Shown in pieces: positions 19,741 through 32,488 of a DNA stretch of 46,683 bases. A program made the translations under genes and the position numbers. The DNA lies in assembly GCA_038093515.1 (NCBI GenBank), contig JBBPSI010000191.1:1-46683 (forward strand), written 5' to 3'. The DNA comes from Butyriboletus loyo (taxonomy: Eukaryota; Basidiomycota; Agaricomycetes; Boletales; Boletaceae). The notes under the pieces are model-generated. The model saw nothing but the letters and a program-made list of their open reading frames with translations, was not told where the DNA came from and did not search any database. Within the stretch, counting starts at the first letter, position 1. Every line of letters begins with the position of its first letter.

Positions 19741-20710
19741 GAATCCTAAGATCTGTAAATGTTGCATGCAGTGTGTCACTGCAGCTTGGAACATGGCACC
19801 AATAGCATATTCCTTTGTGACGTCTGGAATATCAGATGGTTTTCTTCCACTCTGTTATGACAACAGAGTTATCAGAGCACATGGGGTTTGCAACTGTTGC
19901 AGTACTACACAAGTACTGGTGATGGTAATGAGGAATAGCTTAGATCTTAATCTCTCAACTGTTGCCAGCGAATAGACAAGTGGTTAAAGCTAGGGAATCC
20001 TAGCCGCAACCACAAGCCCTTTTATATTACAAGGGAATGCGCACAGACCAAGCAGTGTGTGAGACTAGTTACTATACATGTATATACGAAGGAAGTCATG
20101 AGTCAACGATGATGGGAAATAGAAGTCGACGGTGATCAAAAAGAAGAGAAGCAAACAGAGATTAAATACATGAGGTGTGATGTCATAGAGTCTGGGCCAG
20201 TCTGGACCATGACGTCATATGCTTAGTCAGCCTATGGTCACATGTATAATCCCATGATCATGTGTGCTAGGTCACATGATCTTTGAAAGAGAAATATGAC
20301 AAAGTCCAAATGCAAAAGATGGTTATAAGAGATACAATTATAACACACTCCAAAAGTACTGCAAAAGTTCCACCTATGCTTCTCAATGTTTTGCATTGAT
20401 ATAGTGCATGCTTGCAAATTATTGGTGTCTTGAGAGCATGGCATGAGGCACATCCATGATCCTTGACTGCATTCAATGCAGAACAAAGGTGATCCACTTG
20501 CAGGATATTTAAATGTTCACGTTCTATGCATTGTCGTTTGGCTTCATGAGCTGCTGTAACAAAACCATTTGAAAGTGTTGGTGAAAGTTGTTCTGTGCTT
20601 GGAATCACTGTGTTCATCACATCAAAGTTATGTTTGAGAACTGATATGGAACACTGATGATGTGTTCTGTTTTGTAGAGTTGTTGATGGAACACTTGGTA
20701 TAGAGATCAT
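19741..20710 (-). pseudogene. Copy B C-terminal region (interrupted by solo LTR)
   Basis: After the helicase core the frame at 20710-20346 is Cys/His containing (HLCSALNAVKDHGCASCHAL). It is cut by a family 1 solo LTR whose GAGTG duplication (minus strand) lies within the frame. Downstream of the LTR the frame reads KGICYWCHVPSCSDTLHATF after an early TGA. Such a cysteine-containing tail is usual for fungal RecQ-like proteins of this type. The final stop was not fixed with confidence. Confidence 0.5.
19853..20345 (-). mobile_element. Solo LTR, diverged family 1, TSD CACTC
   Basis: 493 bp from TGTTATGACAAC to TTATAACA with CACTC on both sides (19848-19852 and 20346-20350). It is clearly related to family 1 (CAACTGTTGCCAGCGAATAG, TATGCTTAGTCAGC) but much more diverged than the other copies, so it is an older insertion or a subfamily. 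It is inserted in the copy B tail exon. Confidence 0.9.
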
Positions 20711-20803
20711 GTGTGAAGGCTTTGAAATTTTTGCATTGGCTTGAGGCTCTGTGGGTGCTTATATAGTAATAATTCATTATTGAAGACTTTCAAAATATAT
20801 ATC

Positions 20804-22230
20804 TTAATAAAACATACCTTTGCAAATACTGCAATGAATATTTTCCTTGCAATCAACACATTTTGTCCCAGTGTTATCAATATACAAGGTCAATCCATAT
20901 TGTAGACATTGTCTTTTTTGAATATCATAGACATAGTCTTTGATATACTGTTGACCTTTGTGATCTTGATTCAAATGTTCAGGTGGATTGATTTTTGGAG
21001 GATTAGAGTTGGGAATAATAAAGCACTTGGCAGGTTTTCCATCTCGACCAGCACATCCTTGAGCTTGAATAAGCTCACTCATCTCCAAGGGAGCTTTGCA
21101 ATGAATAATCAGTCAAAGATGTGGATAATTATTGCCAGTGCTGAAGGCAGATGTGCAGATCATGATAGAAGAAACACCATTGCGCCAGTTGGTATAGGCT
21201 TGAAAACGGTCCTCATCTGTAATATTGATATCACCAGTATAAAATGGCCAGTTTGTCGGCAAATAACCCAGATTTAGCTGCTGAGGGTTAATACAAATTT
21301 CATCAAAAATACCTTTGCTGCCAATGTATGCCCATCTTGCAAATATGTTACAAATATTAAAGCCCGATCTTGTGTATTCCAAGATTTTTGCTCTTGTTGA
21401 ACAAGATGAACAATCTTTGGCATCATGGCTGGAGTGCCCATTGGTTGTTCAAGTATATACTCCAATTCAGGGCGATTGGATGACTGTTGAAAGATTTGTA
21501 TTTTTGGAACCAAAGCAAAAGCCTCCTTAATTGACAATTCTTTGCTGGGTGGAAGTGTGGCAGTCAATAAGATGACTTGTACTGCCAGTTCACGGAGTTT
21601 GAATACATGTTTGAGTGAATCCCAGAAATTGTGAGATAGCAGAACCAAATGTGCTTCATCAAAAACCAGGCAAGTGACAGGTGTGATTTCATGAAAGTCA
21701 GCAATTGCAGAACGCCAGGTTGGAAATTTTGCTTTATCAGCAGAGACAAGAATGAGATTGATTTGAGGATTCAGTTGGCCTAGATTAAGACTGGGATTGA
21801 AAACTTGATAGTCGACTTTCAATTCCATTAACTTGTATTCCCAGTCCATGAGTAGAGATCGCAGTGGTAAAACCACAATTATTGCCTCATGAGGAAGCAT
21901 AATTGCAGGAATTATGGCCAACATGGATTTGCCACCACCAGTCCTGAGCAAAGCCATGACATCTGTTTTGTGCTGGGCAATAGCTATTGCAGCCTCCTTT
22001 TGATATATTGAGATCCATGTTATACTTGTATTCTTCAAGACCTGCTGTAGTATTAAAAGGCAGGAAGATCCAACTTCTTCATTTGATCTCAGTGAAATGT
22101 CCATTTTTGACTGTATAGTATTTGTTGGAGAATCTGTAACACACATATGAATGAAATATTGCCATCCAAATATTGTTTTTATTACCTTGTATATTCTTTG
22201 TTGGGAGATTTGGTATAGTAGGAATTTCAT
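20804..22230 (-). pseudogene. Copy B RecQ-like helicase domain
   Basis: SF2 helicase motifs appear in order: a Q-containing start (WISIYQKEAAIAI), Walker A LLRTGGGKSMLAIIPA, motif Ia VVLPLRSLLMDW, Walker B VFDEAH, motif III LLTATLPP, motif V region ICTSAFSTGNNYPHL, and motif VI QAQGCAGRDGK. The family usually has GRAGRDG in motif VI; here the first arginine codon is TGT, one C-to-T change from CGT. TGA at 21113-21115 falls before LIIHCKAPLEM, where family members have V-R-L-x-I-H. Between ALIFVTYLQDGHTLAAK and QLNLGYLPTN the frame changes; a 32 bp GT...AG segment would join them, or it is a frameshift. An intron near 20770-20810 separates the tail. The product would be a 3'-5' DNA helicase if intact. 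Confidence 0.85.
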
Positions 22231-22277
22231 CTGAATTCGCTATTGGCATAGTATCTGAAAAGAAATCTTATGTGAGT

Positions 22278-22523
22278 TTATAAGTTTAATAAATAAGAAT
22301 CAGATGATTTACTGATTTGTGGATCTCTATGCTTGAGTTCATATCTCTTATCCCATTCATCTTGTTGAGCAGACAATTCATCATAGAGAGCATCAAGATC
22401 ATCCTCTTCATTTGTTGGAATTTTTCTACTAGATTGTGGGGTAGATTCTTGGATTCTGGTGTCGACACCAGATTTAGGAACTGATAGCTCTTGTAGAGTA
22501 CTGGCAATTGTGGTGGTGATCAA
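22278..22523 (-). pseudogene. Copy B hinge exon
   Basis: Low-complexity linker (STPQSSRKIPTNEEDDLDAL, YDELSAQQDEWDKRYE) corresponding in position to copy A 843-999, which is also acidic. It lies between the linker region and the helicase core, with an intron at about 22255-22310. A TAA near 22557 precedes it. Confidence 0.55.
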
Positions 22524-22556
22524 GGGTGTCAGAGCAGTGATCAGATGATTTGTGAT

Positions 22557-24290
22557 TTAAGTTTGCATGTCAGGAATCACTGTGGTTTTGAATTTTGTGA
22601 TCAGATGATCTGTAAATGCCTTTTCTGAGAAAGAAAAAGAATCATGTTTCTTGGATGAGTGGGATTCTTGTTGACTCTTGAGATCTAGTTGACCAGCTTT
22701 TGCCATTTCTTTAAAACGAGATGGTGTAATCTCTGAGTATGGCAATTTGATTCCACTTGGCATGGTATGCAAAATAATCTGCCATCGCTTGCTGGCCTCA
22801 AGGAAAAGTGGCAGGATATCTTCACTTGCACCTGCAAGAGCATCTGGGCTAAGTCCATATATTTTGTCCCCAACCGCACGGGAGTGTCCAGCCTGTAAAG
22901 CATCGATGTTGTCATTCTGATCCAATTCCAGCAACTCCTCTGCAAATTGACCCAGTTTGCGCTTGAAAGCAATGCTAATATGTCTCCATGAATTGACTGT
23001 AAGTTTGAAATCCAAATGGCCAAGGCTTATTCTGGTCAACATGTCACTGAGTTGATTGGTATTGAATAACTTGGAGTCATTGACAAAGAGCTGGGTCCAA
23101 TAAAGATGTTGGATTTCAGGATTGTCTGTGAAACAAAGATAGGCTGCTAGCTCTGCAAAAGGACGTGCAATGGCCAATGATTGGATCATAAGATCAGCAG
23201 TGAGAGCATCAATTGCATGTGGAATAAGCTTGTCATGTCCAGAGAGGGCACCAGATTTGTGATAGCAACGAAGCAGAGTCAGATTTGATCCTAGCATAAT
23301 GAGATTTCATTGGTGATAGTTGGTGTTATAGAAAGCAAGAGCAGTAAGCTCTGTTCCTCGACCTGGAGAACCACAAAGTGTTTCACAGCGAAGCAAGAGA
23401 TGACCCTGAAATTCAGCATAGTCTCGAAGCCAAACTCTCAAAGCACTACAATCCCAAACCATTTGGCCATTAATTGTTTTGCCAAACATGGATGTGATTT
23501 TTGGATTGGAAAGAAATGCTCTGCCCAATATATCTTTATCTGCAAAGCAAGTGTTGTGTTTGTCAGTGAGAAAGGAGTAACCCAATGATTTGTTGGTCAA
23601 ATCATCTGTGATAGATCTATAGTCAATTCGTAGACCAGAGATTCCTCGTAAGATCTTTTTCTCCTATATTTCTGTGGTGGTTTGTCCATGAGCTGCAAAC
23701 ATTTGTTGCAGACTATCCAAGCGAATATGATTTCCTTGATAGAGAAGCTCTTGCCAATGTTCTGTATCAATCCACCATATACGTGGAAGGGATTTGGTTT
23801 GATATGCTATTGCAGAGGCCAAGTGTTGAAGGGATTGAATGCGTGCAAAAGGATAGTTTGTGTTTTCAGTAAACCAATCTGATAAATACTCGCATGCTTG
23901 CTCTTCATTATTGTCATATTTGCGAGCTGCAAGCAGTTTGATTTCCTTGAGGCATGTTAAGCAGATGCAGTATTCAAATTTGGCAAAATACTGAGTGATT
24001 TCATGGGGTTGTTTGTGTGTTCCATCCTTGTTGAGAGTCAGGATTGCCAGAAGTCGTTCGGTTGGACAAGGAATGGTATTATCAGCCATTTTGTGCCATT
24101 TGGACAGCCAAACATTTGAGAGAACTAGGTGAATAGTCTCTGATACATCCACTTGATGCTTCAATGCGACTTCCAAGTCTTGAATGTAATCAACAAGCTT
24201 TCCAGGCAAAGGAATAGTGTAGCCTTCAGAGTATTGGACTTGCACAAGCAGTGAAAGCAAGGCAGTTACTGGCTCTGCATATTTTTTCAT
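22557..24290 (-). pseudogene. Copy B conserved linker region
   Basis: Several open stretches (24290-23664, 23600-23310, 23297-22560) colinear with copy A 1511-3382. Shared blocks are PFARIQSLQHLASAI/PFAHLHSLQHYASAI, RIWWIDTEHW/NIWWTENMHW, GHDKLIPHAIDALTAD and YGLSPDALAGASEDILP. TGA at 23307-23309 and TAG near 23655 break the frame. No known catalytic signature. Conservation between two decayed copies suggests this large region mattered to function before decay. Confidence 0.7.
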
Positions 24291-24392
24291 TGTATTTTTG
24301 TCTTGATGGCAGTGAAAAGAAGTATTATTATAACCACTTAAATCCAGATAAATGCCTCAGATGATTAGTTCACATGTGAATTGATCACTCAC

Positions 24393-25171
24393 CATTTTTG
24401 TGGATTTTCTGAATTTAATTTCTTCAGAATAAGCTCATCTGTAGAAGACAGCAAATCAAGTGCTTCATTAAAATATTCCAAAACTGCAGCTTGAATTCCA
24501 GGTATACAAGTGTGCTTTGAAGTGCTGCTGGAGCTTGAAATTAAAGTGTGCAGCTCTGTTATGGAATATTCTGTGACATGTTCATGCCAGCGAGTAGTTA
24601 AAAGCCATGGACTGATAAGTCGCCGATCAATTGGAAGAAGTCGATGTCCAAGAGCAGTGTTGGCTTTCATACAAAGGGATTTGAGAACATAGTCAATGGA
24701 GGAATGGCTATTGTCTTGGTAATGGTGGTCAACAACTTGCCAAAGTTGGTGAGTTGAGCCACCATTGTTAAGCTGTTGCATTTTGCAAGCATCTCATGTA
24801 GAAGGACATGCAAGATCTGGATGTGCAGAAATATGGTGTGCATGCAGATATTTGGTAGAACTGGTGACTTGGGAACAAAAAGAACATTTAAATCCATTGA
24901 AAATTTTGAGTCCTTTAAATGGGTTGATGTTATGGAACTGTGAAGTGTTTGGAAGTTCCAATGAGATACCATTGGCCTTTAGAATAGCCAATAAGTGTGT
25001 TGAATTATAAGTGAGATTTTTGTGATTGTCCTGGAGATGGCTTTTGACATGGGTTGGTTGAATAGCCACCATGCAAAGAGTGCAACATAAGGCTTTGAGC
25101 ACAGGATCAATAACCAGATTAATGGAATCCAGGTAGGGATGATGAGACAACTGATCCATCTCATGGTAGAT
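24393..25171 (-). pseudogene. Copy B OrsD-like double zinc-finger exon
   Basis: The exon opens at 25171 after a TACTAG acceptor and reads IYHEMDQLSHHPYLDSINLV. Finger 1 is CCTLCMVAIQPTHVKSHLQD-NH, finger 2 is FKCSFCSQV ... HAHHISAH. TGA at 24794-24796 interrupts the exon (PST-stop-DACKMQQL). It continues with QLWQVVDHHYQDNSHSSIDY to a GTGAGTG donor near 24391. The following intron carries a palindrome at 24362-24387. The double-finger arrangement with a hydrophobic lead-in matches OrsD/DUF3505-type domains. Confidence 0.75.
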
Positions 25172-25221
25172 CTAGTAATATGATATATTAGTTTCATATC
25201 ATGTGAATCAAAAATACCTAC

Positions 25222-25569
25222 AGCATGATTGTCTGATTTAGCAGATATATCTGCAATATCTAATGAAGGGACCTGCTTTGGAAAAGCATTTATAATTGGA
25301 TCACCATGCTGATTTATGATTTTACCTTGCTTTCTGCTTCTGAAGACTTTATAGAAATTAGATAGAATTAACCCAATGATTAGTTCACATGTTAACTAGT
25401 CATCTTACCTTAGCAGAGACCTATATAGCATGGATTGTCAGCAATGATTAATTCACATGTTAACTAGTCATCTTACCTCAGCATGTGGCTGTGCTGCTGC
25501 TATTTCCTTCAATTCTTGATCAAGAGTTTCTGAGAATGCAGCCAGCAAATCTTTAAGTGTTGTGGACAT
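25222..25569 (-). pseudogene. Copy B first exons, including a possible 12-nt microexon
   Basis: Exon 1 is 25477-25569 (31 codons, MSTTLKDLLAAFSETL...). The intron 25421-25476 contains a palindrome. A 12-nt exon VSAK (25409-25420) would follow, then a second palindrome-bearing intron (about 25309-25408), then exon HGDPIINAFPKQ (25222-25308) and an intron 25172-25221 ending TACTAG. All junctions keep phase. The two palindromes share the same ~33 bp including the GTAAGATGACTAG donor, so this is a local duplication. Alternatively the whole 25309-25476 is one intron. Confidence 0.5.
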
Positions 25570-25944
25570 CGTGGGAAATTTGTTCGCAAAAATGGCAATT
25601 CCTAATAGGGAAGGAACAAATGGAAGAACAAAAGGTTAAGCTTTTAAGTTTTGTAGCTTCTTTCATCTTCAAGGTTGTTTTAAACTCAGTTTTAAAATAG
25701 GAATGATTATATAACATACAAACAAGTAATGACAGTCATCACATAAGCATGATTAAGTAAGTATATCATATAATAAACTATAAAGTTGAATCAGGGCAGA
25801 AAGATAAATATTTAACAATATGTGTAAGTATTTGACACACCAGGTATATATACTGGCTGAAATGAAACAGATAACTTTTTCACCCTGACTCTTTACTCTC
25901 ACTATCAAGCTTTATTTGCTTTTTTGAAATTTCTTTTTGCACAA
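25570..25944. promoter_or_regulatory. Shared intergenic region of the divergent gene pair
   Basis: 375 bp between the two start codons. It contains a symmetrical TATA-like GGTATATATACTGG at about 25852-25865 and a pyrimidine-rich stretch just before the plus-strand ATG. It probably served as a bidirectional promoter. No palindrome of the intronic family occurs here. Confidence 0.5.
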
Positions 25945-28900
25945 ATGTCTACAAACATCAACAAAATCAAAGCTGTAAGCCCTATTTTTTATACACACAC
26001 ATATTTCTTGGCTAAATTAGTCATTATTTGATAGACCAATAAATCTCAGGTGGGTATTTGCTTATAATTTTCTATCATTTCTTTTTTGTGGTCAAATATG
26101 ATTGATTTCTTCTTTCTTCTTTTTTTTTTTACTCAACTGCCTTGATTGTGATCTGATTATTAGTTCACATGTGAACTAATAATTCAGATTTAATTGGAAT
26201 AAAAATCTAAAAGCTTATTGTTTGATGGCTCTGATATATTTGGATTTCTAACTGACTTGGTTATCTCTTTTCCATTACTAGAAAGCTGAGAAAGCAGCAA
26301 CTGAGAAGTTCTCCAATTATTTGGATAATCTTGCAGAAGTGTGTCTTGGTTGGGGGCTGGTTTTTGTTGGCAATGACAACAACCTTGGACTGGGACCTTT
26401 TCTTGGTCACCAAAACTTTAACACCCGTCCAGTCCAAATGGGGCTTATCAACAAAATGAAAAAGAATGCTGAATCTGCAGGTCTTGCAAACAGAGTTCCA
26501 GACCAGGCGATCCAGATCGGTGTCAAGAGCTCCTATATTGCAGGTGGTATTATCCCTGACCAGCTCAATACTTCCTATAGCAACCTAGTCCAGTGGACCG
26601 ATGAAGCGAAATCTCCCCAGGCCCAGATCGAGCTTATCGATGGGAATCATTGAGTAACCTTGTTGCAGTGTCGTTACGAGAAGAAGATATTTTTACTGCA
26701 GGATTATCAACAGAAGCTCCCACAAGCAAGTACCCCTTGTGAGCACAGTGACTTACAGAAGCACATTCACAACCTGGAGACAGAGATACGTACTGGAGGT
26801 GTATGGCTTGCAGAAATCTTTGACTTGGGTAAAATTTATTCTGATTATTAGTTAACGTGTTAACTAATCACTGACATCATAGACTTGATCAGAGCTAAAG
26901 AAGAACATGGCCTCATTTTCTTCAAGCTTTCTTCTAATCGCCTACAGCCACACAGAGAGGATACCGATACGCAACTGTTTAAAAATCTGTTGCACTGTCT
27001 TTGCATGGAGTCTGAGAGTCCTATTGATGATCCCCTATCTCTCACAGCTTATGAGAGCCTTGTTAAAGATTGGACCTCAAGTTGGACTCACCAGTCTTCT
27101 TGTCCGACGCTGATTTTGAAGAACAAGAAGCTTACATTCTGGCTTGCATGGCTGTTTGAACTCATCACATATGAATCCAGCGAGCTTATCAACATATCCC
27201 TGCCTGCATCCAACTTGCATCCATACTTTACTGGAGTAAGTTTCTGGTTATAATTTGCTGATTATTAGTTAACATGTGAACTAATAATCACTCTTTTATA
27301 GCAATTCCTTGCTATCTTTCAGCCTATGTGGTCCATTTTCCAATACCTCACCTCTCCATTCCTTATGCCTGAGGTGGACATAGCCTGCACAAAAGTCCTA
27401 GGGCACTATGTTCATCTAACACTTGGGTCTGATGAATGTTATGGTAGTGGTATACTTTTTCCATCCATTACCACTTGGACTACTTCATTCGCCTAGCCTT
27501 TTGCTAGTGCCCTTTGAGCGGTACGAACCGCTCTAGCTTAGTCACCATTTCCCGTGCACAGACGCACTTTCTTTCATACTCCAGAATGTTCTAGAGTATT
27601 TCTTCCTTGTTTGTACTTTCCTTCTCGCGACTTGATTAGGAACATGGTCTGTGCACAGACCCCAGTAGTATAAAGACTCGGTCTTTACACCCATGTACTT
27701 TATCTAGTTCTATGCAGTCTTCTGCTAGCAATTAGTTCTCTTCCAGACTCTTAGTGTGCGCACTAAGACATAGTCTGAGACTTCTCCAGAATCATCTCCA
27801 GAGTCCTGCGGCTACTCCAGAGTGCCGCCTCAGAGTTCTCGTTGTTAGCACCCAGCATAACAATGAATGCACTCAGGTAGTACAGGAAATTGAGAAAGAA
27901 ACAAGACCTTTGTACTCACGACACACCAGAGACTGTCCCAAGTCCATGATTTCAGTTTTAGAAAGTGGTGAACAGTGCTTCCTGGACCAGTGGCAAAACA
28001 CATTCTCTGAAATCCTCTCACCTGTTATGTATCTGTTTGGTTCCATAGAGCCCACAGAAGCTGAGATTTACAACAAAGCCTATGATCACTACTTCAAGAA
28101 AGTGATAGCTGATGCCAAGGAGGTAGTAAAGGAGATGCAGGGAGATGGCACAAACACACACGATATCACTGCGCCTGTCCTGGGAAATATTCTCATCAAA
28201 TTACAGTGGTTGCAGCTGGGCTATTTTCCTACTGACGAACCACAAGTCATTCCACGCACTCCATTCCCACTCTTCAGTCCCATTGCAATGCAGGTGTTGC
28301 AAAGTCTCTGGAACACCACCCAGATTACAGTTTTGCCAACACACTCACAGCTGTTGAATTATGGCCCAACTATAGCAGAGGTAAATATAATTTAAATGTG
28401 ATTATTAGTTAACATGTGAACTAATCATTTGATTCAATCAGTGCATAGATTGGATTTTCCCTTTAGGTCGTTATGGTTGGCTTGGGCAGAGAATCAACCG
28501 TGACTGGGAGGATTTATGGGAAGCAGTGGAGATATTCTTGCAGCATCGCATGAAAATACAAGATGCCCAACAACGTTGCTGGTGTGTTTGCAAGGTAAGG
28601 GTCTAGTATGTGCTAAAGATACTCACTTATGTCTATCACACTCTAGATCATACAGCTCTTTTTTGAACATCATCAACACACATTTCCAATTCTCCATGCA
28701 GCATTTGAGAAAGCCTTTCCAACTGTTGGAAAGGACACTTGGGAAGACCTGGCTCTCAAGGAGGCGATCATCATGAAGGATGAGAAGATTGGCGATGTCA
28801 AATGGGATCTAACTCTAACAAAATTCCTCATGGCCTATGCAAATGAGATTGCCAATGCTTCGCACTCCATTATTCGCCCCAAAGCCAGTACCCAGCTTTT

Positions 28901-30514
28901 GAATCAAACTTTGCTGGGATGTGTCACAGAAGAGCAAAAGGAAATGTTCTGGGACTTCTATTGTATTATTCGTGCATCTGTCTTCAATTGGGAGGCTTAT
29001 GGTGTCACAGGCATACATCGCCAATTTATTTCACAAAGCTTTGTGGATGCCATGCAACTCAATAGACGAGCTAACATTTTAGCCCTATTACCAATATGGA
29101 AATTCCGCAAACAGCTAGTCGAGCTATTTCAAGACATGATGGAAGAAGTGGGCATGGATGCAAATACCTGGTCTGGTTGGGATATTTATGAGCCCTCTGG
29201 AAAGCTAGCTCTCCAGGACACCTCCTATACTGTGTTGCTGCCCAAGGAGTATGAAGGCGAAACAAGTGGCACAGCAATGGAACGTGCTGCATTGGCACCT
29301 ACTGTCTTTGCCAAAGGAAAAGAAGCCATACATAAGATTATCGAGCTTGTCCAGTCCCCACAGCTAGGGGGCATTCAGACAGAAAATGGACTTTGCTTGG
29401 ATCCTACATTACATGCAGTTACCAGAAACTTCCTAACTGTAAGGATTTATTCTGATTATTAGTTAACATGTTAACTAATCATTCATCATAGGAGCTTGCT
29501 GTGCTTGTGAATAAACAGGTTCACAGAATACAGGATCCCACTGCAGATCTGACAGTTCCTATGCTGGCCCAGGACACAGTGCAAGCAATTTGATCTCTGG
29601 ACTTGGGCAGTGATTTTGAAGTGCTGGAATTTGCAAAATCTGAGGAAGCTGATAAACACTGGTGTGGACAGACTACAGATGAATTGCAACAATCCAGCTC
29701 ATTTCTGGTTTCTACTTCTACCACAGCCTTTTCTAAAATGGAAAACAACAAAAAGGACAAGGAAGGAAAGCATTATCAAAGGAAAATTGGCAGCTGGCTT
29801 AGAGCAAGTGAAAAGAAAACACATTGCCCAAAGCTCAAGGTCACAACTGATGGCTCAGCATCTGGTATGTAATCATTTGGATTATATGTTAACTTCAATT
29901 ACCCATTGAAACAATAATGAAGCTACTCCAGGATCCTCTAACCAGAGAGGATCTTATTCAGGATCTGCTGTTGCACACTCTGGTATTAGTGGTAAGTACA
30001 TTATTCCTTGATTATTAGTTAACATGTCAACTAATAATTATATTATTCAGACAAACACCCCACTCCTGATAGTGGATTCACTGGTACTTCTGCTAGTCCA
30101 GCAAAGACTACACAATTAACTGGAAATGATGACAACATCACTCAAATGCTCTTATTGTTACGGGCCCAGCAGATATCAATTACCAACACTCGTACTCCTG
30201 AAGAATGGCAGACTATTGTTGGCCACCTTACCAAATCTGAAACTCTGCCAGAAGACAACTGGCCCAGTTTGGTCAAGTCTCTGTTCACCATACACAACCT
30301 GTTCAATAAGCCCAGCCTCTCTGCCAACACCTTTTTATTGTGGCTTCATAATCAGGTCACTTATCCCACAGATCTTGAGTTGTGGAAGTGGTTGATGTAT
30401 AACTTGAAGGGTAACTCCACTGTGGGAGAAACAGTCATCAAGACATGCAAGAAGTGGGTGGATGATATGAGCAAAGATATGATTCAAATGCCAGCTGTGG
30501 AAGGTGCAGATTAA
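25945..30514 (+). pseudogene. Divergent nine-exon gene with ParB/sulfiredoxin-like motif, function unknown
   Basis: Exons: 25945-25974, 26282-26828, 26883-27235, 27302-28380 (minus a solo LTR and one duplication), 28442-28594, 28647-29438, 29492-29864, 29923-29991, 30051-30514. All junctions are GT...AG and phases agree. The exons sum to 3429 nt, or 1142 codons plus stop, strong support for the model. Two in-frame TGA codons (26651-26653 and 29591-29593) interrupt it; both fit CGA to TGA. Exon 2 has FNTRPVQMGLINKMKKNAES and, later, IELIDGNH followed by TGA then VTLLQCRYE. DGNHR-x-x is typical of ParB/sulfiredoxin-like folds, so the first stop may have replaced that arginine. The rest (helical, Trp-rich, with a Ser/Thr-rich linker near 29800-30120) was not recognised. 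Six of eight introns carry the palindrome. Confidence 0.7.
27437..27862 (+). mobile_element. Solo LTR, family 2, TSD ATGAA
   Basis: 426 bp from TGTTATGGTAGTGG to CCCAGCATAACA, flanked by ATGAA (27432-27436 and 27863-27867). Removing it and one duplication restores the frame of exon 4 of the host gene (GSDE-CTQVVQEIEKE). The ends show CG to TG/CA changes relative to the Element 2 LTRs. Confidence 0.93.
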
Positions 30515-32047
30515 GCTATGGATACTTTGTGATCTGCTAGTTGTGATGTATATTGTCTAGTGCTGTTAAGTGCATGTGTGTAAATGTACAATAGGACAAT
30601 ATTGTGGTGTTATATATCAGAATGACTGAAAGAAATTAGTCAATGAGCAAATTATGCAAAAAGAAAGCATAAATGATTGTAAAGCCTAACAGCCATGAGC
30701 CTCGCTCTTCCACCAATATTAGTGATTAGTTAACATGTGAACTAATCATTTACAAAACAAGCATAAAGTCTCACAAAGAGGTAAGTAATAAAGTGGGTGT
30801 ATAGCTTCAATTCCCAACTAATACAGGAGTGTACAGTGTACAAATGTGGTAAATAAATCATTTGTGCAGGTATCATGCCAGTTCTATTCACCTGAAACCA
30901 TTTGAAATGCTCTTATTTATTTGCAACTTGCCCACATTCACTTCTACTAATAATTCACCAAGTAGGGGTTCATGTGAGCATAGAGCAGAATGTCCTAGTG
31001 ATCATAAATTGAATAATAGATGATGGTTGAGAATAGTGATTAGTTCACATGTGAAGTAATCATCAAGCAGGATAAGGTAAGATAGTGCCATGTCCACTCC
31101 AACAAAACCACAACTATATCACATGAAGTATGACCCAGTGATTAGTTAACATGTTAACTGATCATTGTGAACAACAAGTAATTACAATGCCAAACAGTCA
31201 CCAAAGTGATCAGTTAACATGTTAACTGATCATCAACCACAACAAGTAGTCACAAAGCCAAATGACAACCAAAGTGAATAGTAGCAGGATGGCCTTGGTG
31301 TGATCAGTTGACATCCATGAAGCTGTGGACTACCATGGGATGATGACCCTAGTGATCAGTTAACATGTGAAGTAATCATTGACCTGATATTGACCATAAT
31401 AATCTCAGTGATCAATAATTCAAGTGGCAGGAACCAATCAAGAGTATCAGCACAAGCACATGGTATACAGAATGGCCCATGCACACTCTGAAGTGAGCAT
31501 TATTACATGGTATGCAGGATGGCCCAGTGATTAGTTAACACGTGAAGTAATCATCAACTGCAGGATGGGATAAACAGAGTGGCAAGTAACTGCAAAAGCA
31601 GTGAGGATGTGTGAAGCAGAGAATGAAAGATGTGTGTGGCAGGATGGCCCAGTGATCAGTTAACACATGAAGTAATCATTGACTGCAGAATGGGGTAAAT
31701 AGGGCAGCAAGCAACCACAAGAGAAGCAAGGAGAGACAAGGCAGAGTGTAAAAGATATGTGTGGAAGGATGGCCCAGTGATCAGTTAACATGTGAAGTAA
31801 TCATTGACTGCAGAATGGGATAAATAGGGCAGCAAGCAACTGAAAAAGAAGTATGGTTATGCAAGAGAGAGGGTGAAAGATGCATGTGGCAGGATGGCCT
31901 GGTGATCAGTTAATGTGTAAAGTGATCATCAACTGCAGGATGGGTTGAATAGAGTAGCAAGTGATTGCAAAAGGAGTGAGAACATGTTCAGCAGAGGGTG
32001 AAATGAGTGTTTTGCAGGATGGGTCATCCTGCCGAGGTAATATGGAT
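30515..32047. repeat. Intergenic palindrome array downstream of the divergent gene
   Basis: Nine further copies of the intronic palindrome: 30723-30748, 31037-31062, 31139-31164, 31207-31232 (perfect 26-bp palindrome), 31353-31378, 31528-31553, 31653-31678, 31778-31803 and 31903-31928. A degenerate half is at 31301-31315. Spacing is about 70-310 bp, settling to ~125 bp. Many have AGTAATCA in the right arm instead of ACTAATCA, so the branch-point form is lost outside introns. No gene is seen in this stretch. Confidence 0.9.
31515..32035 (+). repeat. ~125 bp tandem repeat containing one palindrome per unit
   Basis: Four units begin AGGATGGCCCAGTGATCAGT or a close variant at about 31517, 31642, 31766 and 31891. 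They continue through TGACTGCAGAATGGGATAAA, a GCAAGCAAC box and an AG-rich part. A partial fifth start (AGGATGGGTCATCC) is near 32018. Confidence 0.85.
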
Positions 32048-32049
32048 AG

Positions 32050-32488
32050 CCTCAAATACGCTAGCCACAAATAAGCAGGGTGGTGCTCCTACCCATTTAA
32101 GACTCTCTGGACACAATGGTAATATTTGCTAAGCCCAATAAAATCAGTTGGGCCCGCAGTGCAACATTCTTCTCCTCCTCCAATATCCAAAAGGGTATAC
32201 CGTGCCAGGGGACCTCTCCAGAACCATTCCAGCATTTTTCCTGGGGGCTATTGAACCCTCTGAATCCATTTGTGACACTTAGAAGTTCCTAAGAACTCGC
32301 CTTCATGGCTGTTCTTGACCTGTACAAAATACAGCCTTGTTTCATTTTTATCTCCACATCCTGACCACCAATCTTGATGGGTAGGGGCTCAAAATGTTCC
32401 TACAGATGTCCTCTATCACATAGGAGCATCATTCAGGCGTTTGGAAACATTCCATTTTGTAACTTAATTCCAGGATGACCGAATAAAC
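32050..32488 (+). repeat. 440 bp direct repeat, right copy
   Basis: Matches 18152-18592 with scattered, mostly transition, differences (for example GACTCTCTGG against GACCCTCCGG). It starts inside what is a tandem-repeat unit in the left copy and ends at the same GACCGAATAAA. Sequence on either side differs between the copies. Confidence 0.88.

Follow-up and report, generated by a model that had tools for sequence, protein, structure and literature searches.

Palindromes in the introns and terminal array of a decayed two-gene element of Butyriboletus loyo: putative sites, specific to each family, for the binding of a protein that the element encodes

In Arabidopsis, the protein VANC21 is reported to occupy short motifs spread over VANDAL21, in introns, between genes and in the terminal regions, and the motifs of VANDAL6 differ (PMC5735166, PMC10398659); the subterminal repeats of CACTA elements are described as palindrome-capable, family-specific and bound by TNPA-like proteins (PMC2613891). 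Here, we analyzed the whole of contig JBBPSI010000191.1 (C191; 46,683 nucleotides [nt], hereafter the window) from the 30.3-megabase (Mb), 420-contig genome of Butyriboletus loyo, which carries two divergent genes studded with copies of one long palindrome. On balance, we favor the view that these are the remains of a two-gene element whose family-specific palindromes are putative binding sites for a protein that the element itself encodes, the sites co-evolving with that protein.

As the cited accounts outline for VANC/VANDAL, a motif extends here element-wide through introns and terminal non-coding DNA, and the motifs of related families have changed in concert (PMC5735166, PMC10398659); unlike there, it is a palindrome of 26–28 base pairs (bp) that covers likely branch points, the element is fungal and has a RecQ gene, and any binding and loss of silencing would be predictions. 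The locus also resembles CACTA (En/Spm) in having, near one element end (here the right), an array of short, palindrome-capable repeats that differs between families (PMC2613891). Unlike in CACTA, the palindromes are intronic as well, and the right terminus, which reads ..GGATAG, appears to differ; no CACTA transposase was found among the Pfam matches of 10 open frames, which are a part of all the frames and come from broken genes. The likeness to VANC/VANDAL and TNPA/CACTA would be one of manner of working, not of membership.

Within the window, the half-site TGATTAGTTMACA had 36 matches with up to two mismatches, against 3.06 expected. The full palindrome, TGATTAGTTMACATGTKAACTAATCA (~26–28 bp), is present in nine intronic copies in the divergent gene pair and in eight further copies in an array to the right of the plus gene. 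Introns were placed on the DNA sequence, using splice sites and a paralogue as reference. The genes, introns and intronic palindromes are as follows.

20320..25569 (approximate ends), minus strand: minus gene, with C2H2-like fingers, a tyrosine-recombinase-like motif and a RecQ helicase; disrupted by in-frame stops
24362..24387, minus strand: palindrome in a minus-gene intron; its counterpart in C250 is decayed
25377..25402, minus strand: palindrome in the minus-gene intron after a 12-bp candidate microexon
25445..25470, minus strand: palindrome in the minus-gene intron preceding that microexon
25945..30514, plus strand: plus gene, nine exons and eight introns, ~1140 amino acids; near-orphan protein; disrupted
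25975-26281, plus strand: plus-gene intron 1, palindrome at 26156..26183
26829..26882, plus strand: intron 2, palindrome centre 25 nt upstream of the 3' splice site
27236..27301, plus strand: intron 3, centre 27 nt upstream
28381..28441, plus strand: intron 4, centre 27 nt upstream
28595..28646, plus strand: intron 5, without palindrome
29439..29491, plus strand: intron 6, centre 23 nt upstream; flanks like those of intron 2
29865..29931, plus strand: intron 7, without palindrome
29992..30050, plus strand: intron 8, centre 26 nt upstream

The preliminary description of this DNA had reported nine introns on both strands with the same palindrome, six of them among the eight of the nine-exon plus gene, and both counts hold: three copies lie on the minus strand (24362, 25377 and 25445) and six in plus-gene introns 1, 2, 3, 4, 6 and 8. 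All six plus-gene palindromes are thus intronic, in a gene of which introns make up 17% (p about 4e-6). A degenerate-pattern scan of C191 gave 21 matches (shuffle mean 3.4), four of which, all with four mismatches, were left out of the counts, including those at 22273 (between minus-gene coding stretches) and 25936 (plus-gene start). The same scan gave 12 matches on contig C89, five left out (all with four mismatches, two being halves of one site split by a long terminal repeat [LTR]), and 15 on contig C250, all used, of which one or two are possibly chance (shuffle mean 1.9). Every match beyond these exclusions was counted. On C89, at 84770-85200 (L055), a palindrome is interrupted by a solo LTR-like insert with ACATG flanking both sides, and at 25361-25480 of the window two neighboring minus-gene introns with identical start and palindrome are separated by the 12-bp candidate exon.

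Paralogous gene pairs are present on other contigs of the same genome. C250 carries both genes, again divergent; its plus protein is colinear with that of C191 over most of its length at 44% identity, although the last part of the C250 gene is cut off. C89 has both genes as well. Introns 2, 3, 4, 6 and 8 lie at matching places in C250, all with palindromes of different sequence, and in C89, over the part that was read, introns 2, 3 and 4 do so too; the GT donor of C250 intron 3 has been lost. Further C250 palindromes are found in intron 1 and in two adjacent minus-gene introns, and four sites (zero to three mismatches) lie downstream of the plus gene. C284 holds a C250-type relic cut inside the palindrome, which is of little informative value.

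When half-sites were compared, the C191 type read TTAGTTMACA, whereas TTAGTAMACA was the form in C250 and C89. All half-sites of C191, C86, C128, C304 and C175 (68/68) had T at position −5, where every intronic half-site of C250 and C89 (36/36) had A; at position −11, the same 68/68 had A and 27/36 had T, counts that are not independent because the copies share ancestry. Both splice sites were checked for part of these C250 and C89 intronic sites. The four downstream sites of C250 had five A and three G at −5. The scan pattern left −5 unspecified and excluded −11; C304 and C175, however, were first found using T at −5. The same substitution was present in both half-sites of every intron compared, and, within C191, the half-sites of nine introns at nine places agreed.

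Could such agreement arise by concerted evolution, with conversion or template switching between palindromes homogenizing them in the absence of any function? Conversion would be expected to leave the flanks alike, as is seen in C191: introns 2 and 6 resemble each other past the palindrome (flank score 17.5; highest of 5000 shuffles, 15.5), bearing out the earlier remark that these two introns (26829-26882 and 29439-29491) are near-identical, and the flanks of introns 2, 6 and 8 are alike in 3 of 10 C191 pairs (P 0, 0.001 and 0.002; 1000 shuffles, uncorrected for 78 pairs). However, the palindrome is common to all of these introns even where flanks are unlike, as within C250 (none of 10 pairs reached P 0.02) and between C191 and C250 orthologues, where only intron 6 of the five pairs reached P 0.02 (0.015). 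The spacing from the 3' splice site is maintained as well, and selection accounts better for the uniform change across introns and array. We therefore regard conversion without function as an unlikely account of the palindromes.

We also analyzed where the palindrome lies within its introns. In the five short palindromic plus-gene introns, its centre is 23–27 nt upstream of the 3' splice site in C191 and 25–26 nt in C250; for C89, where three introns were read, the distance is again 25–26 nt. With random placement, 0.44% of trials gave a spread no wider than the one in C191. The right arm, AACTAAT or TACTAAA, puts a candidate branch A 13–17 nt before the splice site, and given this position of the centre, the right arm likely supplies the branch point in these five introns. 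The minus-gene introns deviate, with a distance of about 37–43 nt (counted by eye).

The preliminary description had gone further, proposing that an inserted palindromic unit brings its own branch point and so becomes an intron. The likely branch A and its near-constant distance in the plus gene uphold the first half of that idea; recent insertion as the source of the introns does not stand. An introner-type origin, in which palindromic units were inserted into exons and turned into introns, would account for five plus-gene introns of 53–66 nt with a near-constant palindrome position and for the near-identity of introns 2 and 6, the last being a feature shared with introner-like elements as characterized in the cited reports (PMC4457414, PMC9860276). 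Unlike the introns of those elements, however, the present ones are shared with a diverged paralogue, and the unit was found in one element family only, not in many unrelated genes. Since introns 2, 3, 4, 6 and 8 occupy the same places in the 44%-identical paralogue, they are older than the split between C191 and C250, and recent gain was rejected for all five. The unit is also missing from introns 5 and 7, eight C191 sites are non-intronic, and no near-exact site was found beyond the element copies. Thus, we find an introner origin improbable; if true, it would be ancient, and an ancient derivation from such units is possible. Because introns 2 and 6, together with 8, already exist in C250, later copying between existing C191 introns fits their likeness better than intron gain. 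The symmetrical stwintrons of Hypoxylaceae are likewise symmetrical fungal introns with a short palindrome, but they spread to new gene positions, and the part of their description drawn on here has no element-wide array (PMC8469720).

Since the site covers the likely branch point, we considered RNA-level control, in which an intron hairpin would mask the branch point and so regulate splicing. Two introns, 3 and 8, folded better than shuffled sequences (z −3.67 and −2.53), whereas introns 2, 4 and 6 folded no better (−0.15, −0.14 and −0.83), so that a simple RNA hairpin, seen in only two of five short palindromic introns, was rejected. At position −4, the two halves were alike in 14 of 18 C250 and C89 sites (7.3 expected), an excess symmetry that an RNA stem or another symmetric constraint could produce; in C191 they varied independently, being alike in 7 of 17 sites (7.8 expected) and, among its nine introns, in four (3.8 expected), the pair being broken in the other five. 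Moreover, the array is non-genic, and what is kept is sequence, beyond mere pairing. We consider control by RNA hairpins quite unlikely as the explanation; the non-genic array favors a role at the DNA level, to which an RNA role may possibly be added.

Contrary to the earlier suggestion that the palindrome is confined to one locus, copies were present on other contigs and, outside genes, in the array at 30723-31803. A genome-wide search, a step proposed in the preliminary description, found the repeats restricted, within the reach of that search, to copies and array fragments of this element, many of them outside introns. Specifically, TTAGTNNRCATGYNNACTAA with up to one mismatch gave 32 sites in the whole genome (10 on C191, 10 on C250, seven on C89, four on C86 and one on C128), every one of which fell in a copy of the gene pair (C191, C250, C89) or in an array fragment (C86, C128), and the reversed control pattern gave no match at the same threshold. 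Looser patterns added sites only on C304, C175 and contigs already found. These genome-search counts may be lower bounds.

The array and the terminus beyond it comprise the following features.

30723..31803, no strand assigned: array of eight palindromes outside genes, partly as 68-bp and 125-bp repeat units
32014..32032, plus strand: perfect 8-bp hairpin, GCAGGATG-GGT-CATCCTGC, 17 bp inside the right end
32033..32049, plus strand: right end (..GGTAATATGGATAG; ..ATATGGATAG), common to five copies

Similar arrays on C86, C128, C304 and C175 stop, like that of the window, at the identical base. Past this shared terminus the flanks were of four kinds, with C128 and C175 at one position of a related repeat, C86 at a different position of it, and C304 and the window in others. 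Element-free target sites were seen, and all four targets compared had the terminal AG of the element as well. The recurrence of the array on four further contigs with one shared end gives it the look of a mobile-element terminus; the C304 copy looks truncated on its left side because it starts within the array. To the left of the C86 array lies a ~1.5-kb (kilobase) tandem repeat (L024 1-3971). The repeat at 32047-32487 of the window recurs alike at base 12281-12721 on C189, C176, C99 and C117, which suggests a shared chromosome-end structure.

As for the proteins, two C2H2-like fingers were read in the minus-gene translation, followed by two further parts.

about 23360-22857, minus strand: tyrosine-recombinase-like motif of the minus gene
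about 22239-20840, minus strand: RecQ helicase part of the minus gene

The RecQ helicase core is supported by a Pfam match in the window and by relatives of the minus gene, including fold searches. Among the 7995 best candidates, 50 proteins were related at E ≤ 0.001, the weakest being mostly ordinary helicases, and all five relatives scanned matched OrsD (PF12013). Most of the named relatives belong to mushroom-forming fungi (Suillus, Pisolithus, Leucogyrophana, Botryobasidium and others); some of the 50 proteins are metagenomic and carry no species name. A RecQ-like gene beside subtelomeric-looking repeats recalls the subtelomeric RecQ-like helicase genes of fungi, in whose proteins, in the portion of the account cited, the helicase core was the sole domain found (PMC7473861); here, in contrast, fingers and a recombinase-like motif precede the helicase.

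Tyrosine recombinases, as in Crypton- or Starship-like elements, typically carry an R-K-R-H-Y set, and a set of this kind can be read in the minus-gene stretch. Of 30 recombinase-like segments cut, 10 had R62, K97, R188 and Y230 invariant and H221 nearly so; among the 30, the H was missing from P0028 and P0031 and the second R from P0036 and P0038, P0036 being also without the stretch that holds the first R. Compared with PHROGs, the segments gave weak matches only, of unknown function. The tyrosine-recombinase-like domain of the minus gene is put forward, by its motif, as an unconfirmed candidate. At 1706-2311 of the window there is a further copy of this part, 49% identical and free of stops there.

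Two in-frame stops, one at 26651 and the other in exon 7, disrupt the plus gene, as does a solo LTR.

27437..27862 (426 bp), plus strand: solo LTR of a high-copy family in exon 4, with ATGAA on both sides

As a single query, its protein found no relative among 6409 candidates. A two-sequence profile of the C191 and C250 proteins found one outside homologue, P0055 of Pisolithus microcarpus, at 35% identity over 52%. The helicase P0009 comes from the strain that has P0055, and the longest contig given for either protein is 342,576 bases; the gene pair is therefore probably kept together in that species too. No relatives with DNA were found in a viral contig collection (53 pattern matches) or a genome contig collection (70 pattern matches).

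Several results, besides the shared ancestry of the half-site copies and the symmetry at −4 in C250 and C89, weigh against a mobile element with its own binding protein. The plus protein had no match in a Pfam scan. The tyrosine-recombinase assignment was unsupported by Pfam (two segments) and by PDB profile searches, neither of which gave a match, and the usable structure model, searched against PDB and viral folds, found mostly helicases, with no recombinase among the matches listed; a first model (P0023) lacked the catalytic stretch, so that its fold search was no test of a recombinase. The left end of the element was sought and not found. With three mismatches allowed, a looser C250-type pattern had one reversed-control match per strand. 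Finally, copying between introns would explain the flank likeness of C191 introns 2, 6 and 8 without function.

Set against these points, an element-encoded binding protein is still the explanation that we favor. The element would be decayed but of predicted mobility, with two divergent genes, one for a protein that combines C2H2-like fingers, a motif like that of tyrosine recombinases and a RecQ helicase, and the other for a protein almost without known relatives. The palindromes, studding the non-coding DNA of introns and right-hand terminal array, would most likely be bound by a dimer of the element's own protein. We infer that this protein reads the sites and has changed in step with them, and that its binding has a role in regulation, anti-silencing or transposition. 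Where the palindrome covers the likely branch point, as in the plus gene, one half-site probably doubles as a splicing signal.

More tentatively, and with considerable doubt, the locus may represent an undescribed kind of fungal element that places its own protein's half-site on intron branch points, with protein and branch sequence (AACTAAT versus TACTAAA) changing together between families and with binding coupling transposition or anti-silencing to expression of the element's own genes. Neither palindromes of this kind nor this gene pair was reported in the literature titles and abstract openings searched, which included few subscription papers or preprints. If upheld, the long palindrome, its placement on the branch point and a RecQ-bearing fungal element would be new. 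The locus also shows how introns can come to resemble one another with no recent gain involved, and the two diverged site types in three gene-pair copies of one genome offer material for specificity tests. If the reading is true, it would extend the co-evolution of an element-encoded binder and its motif from plants to fungi, and onto splicing signals.

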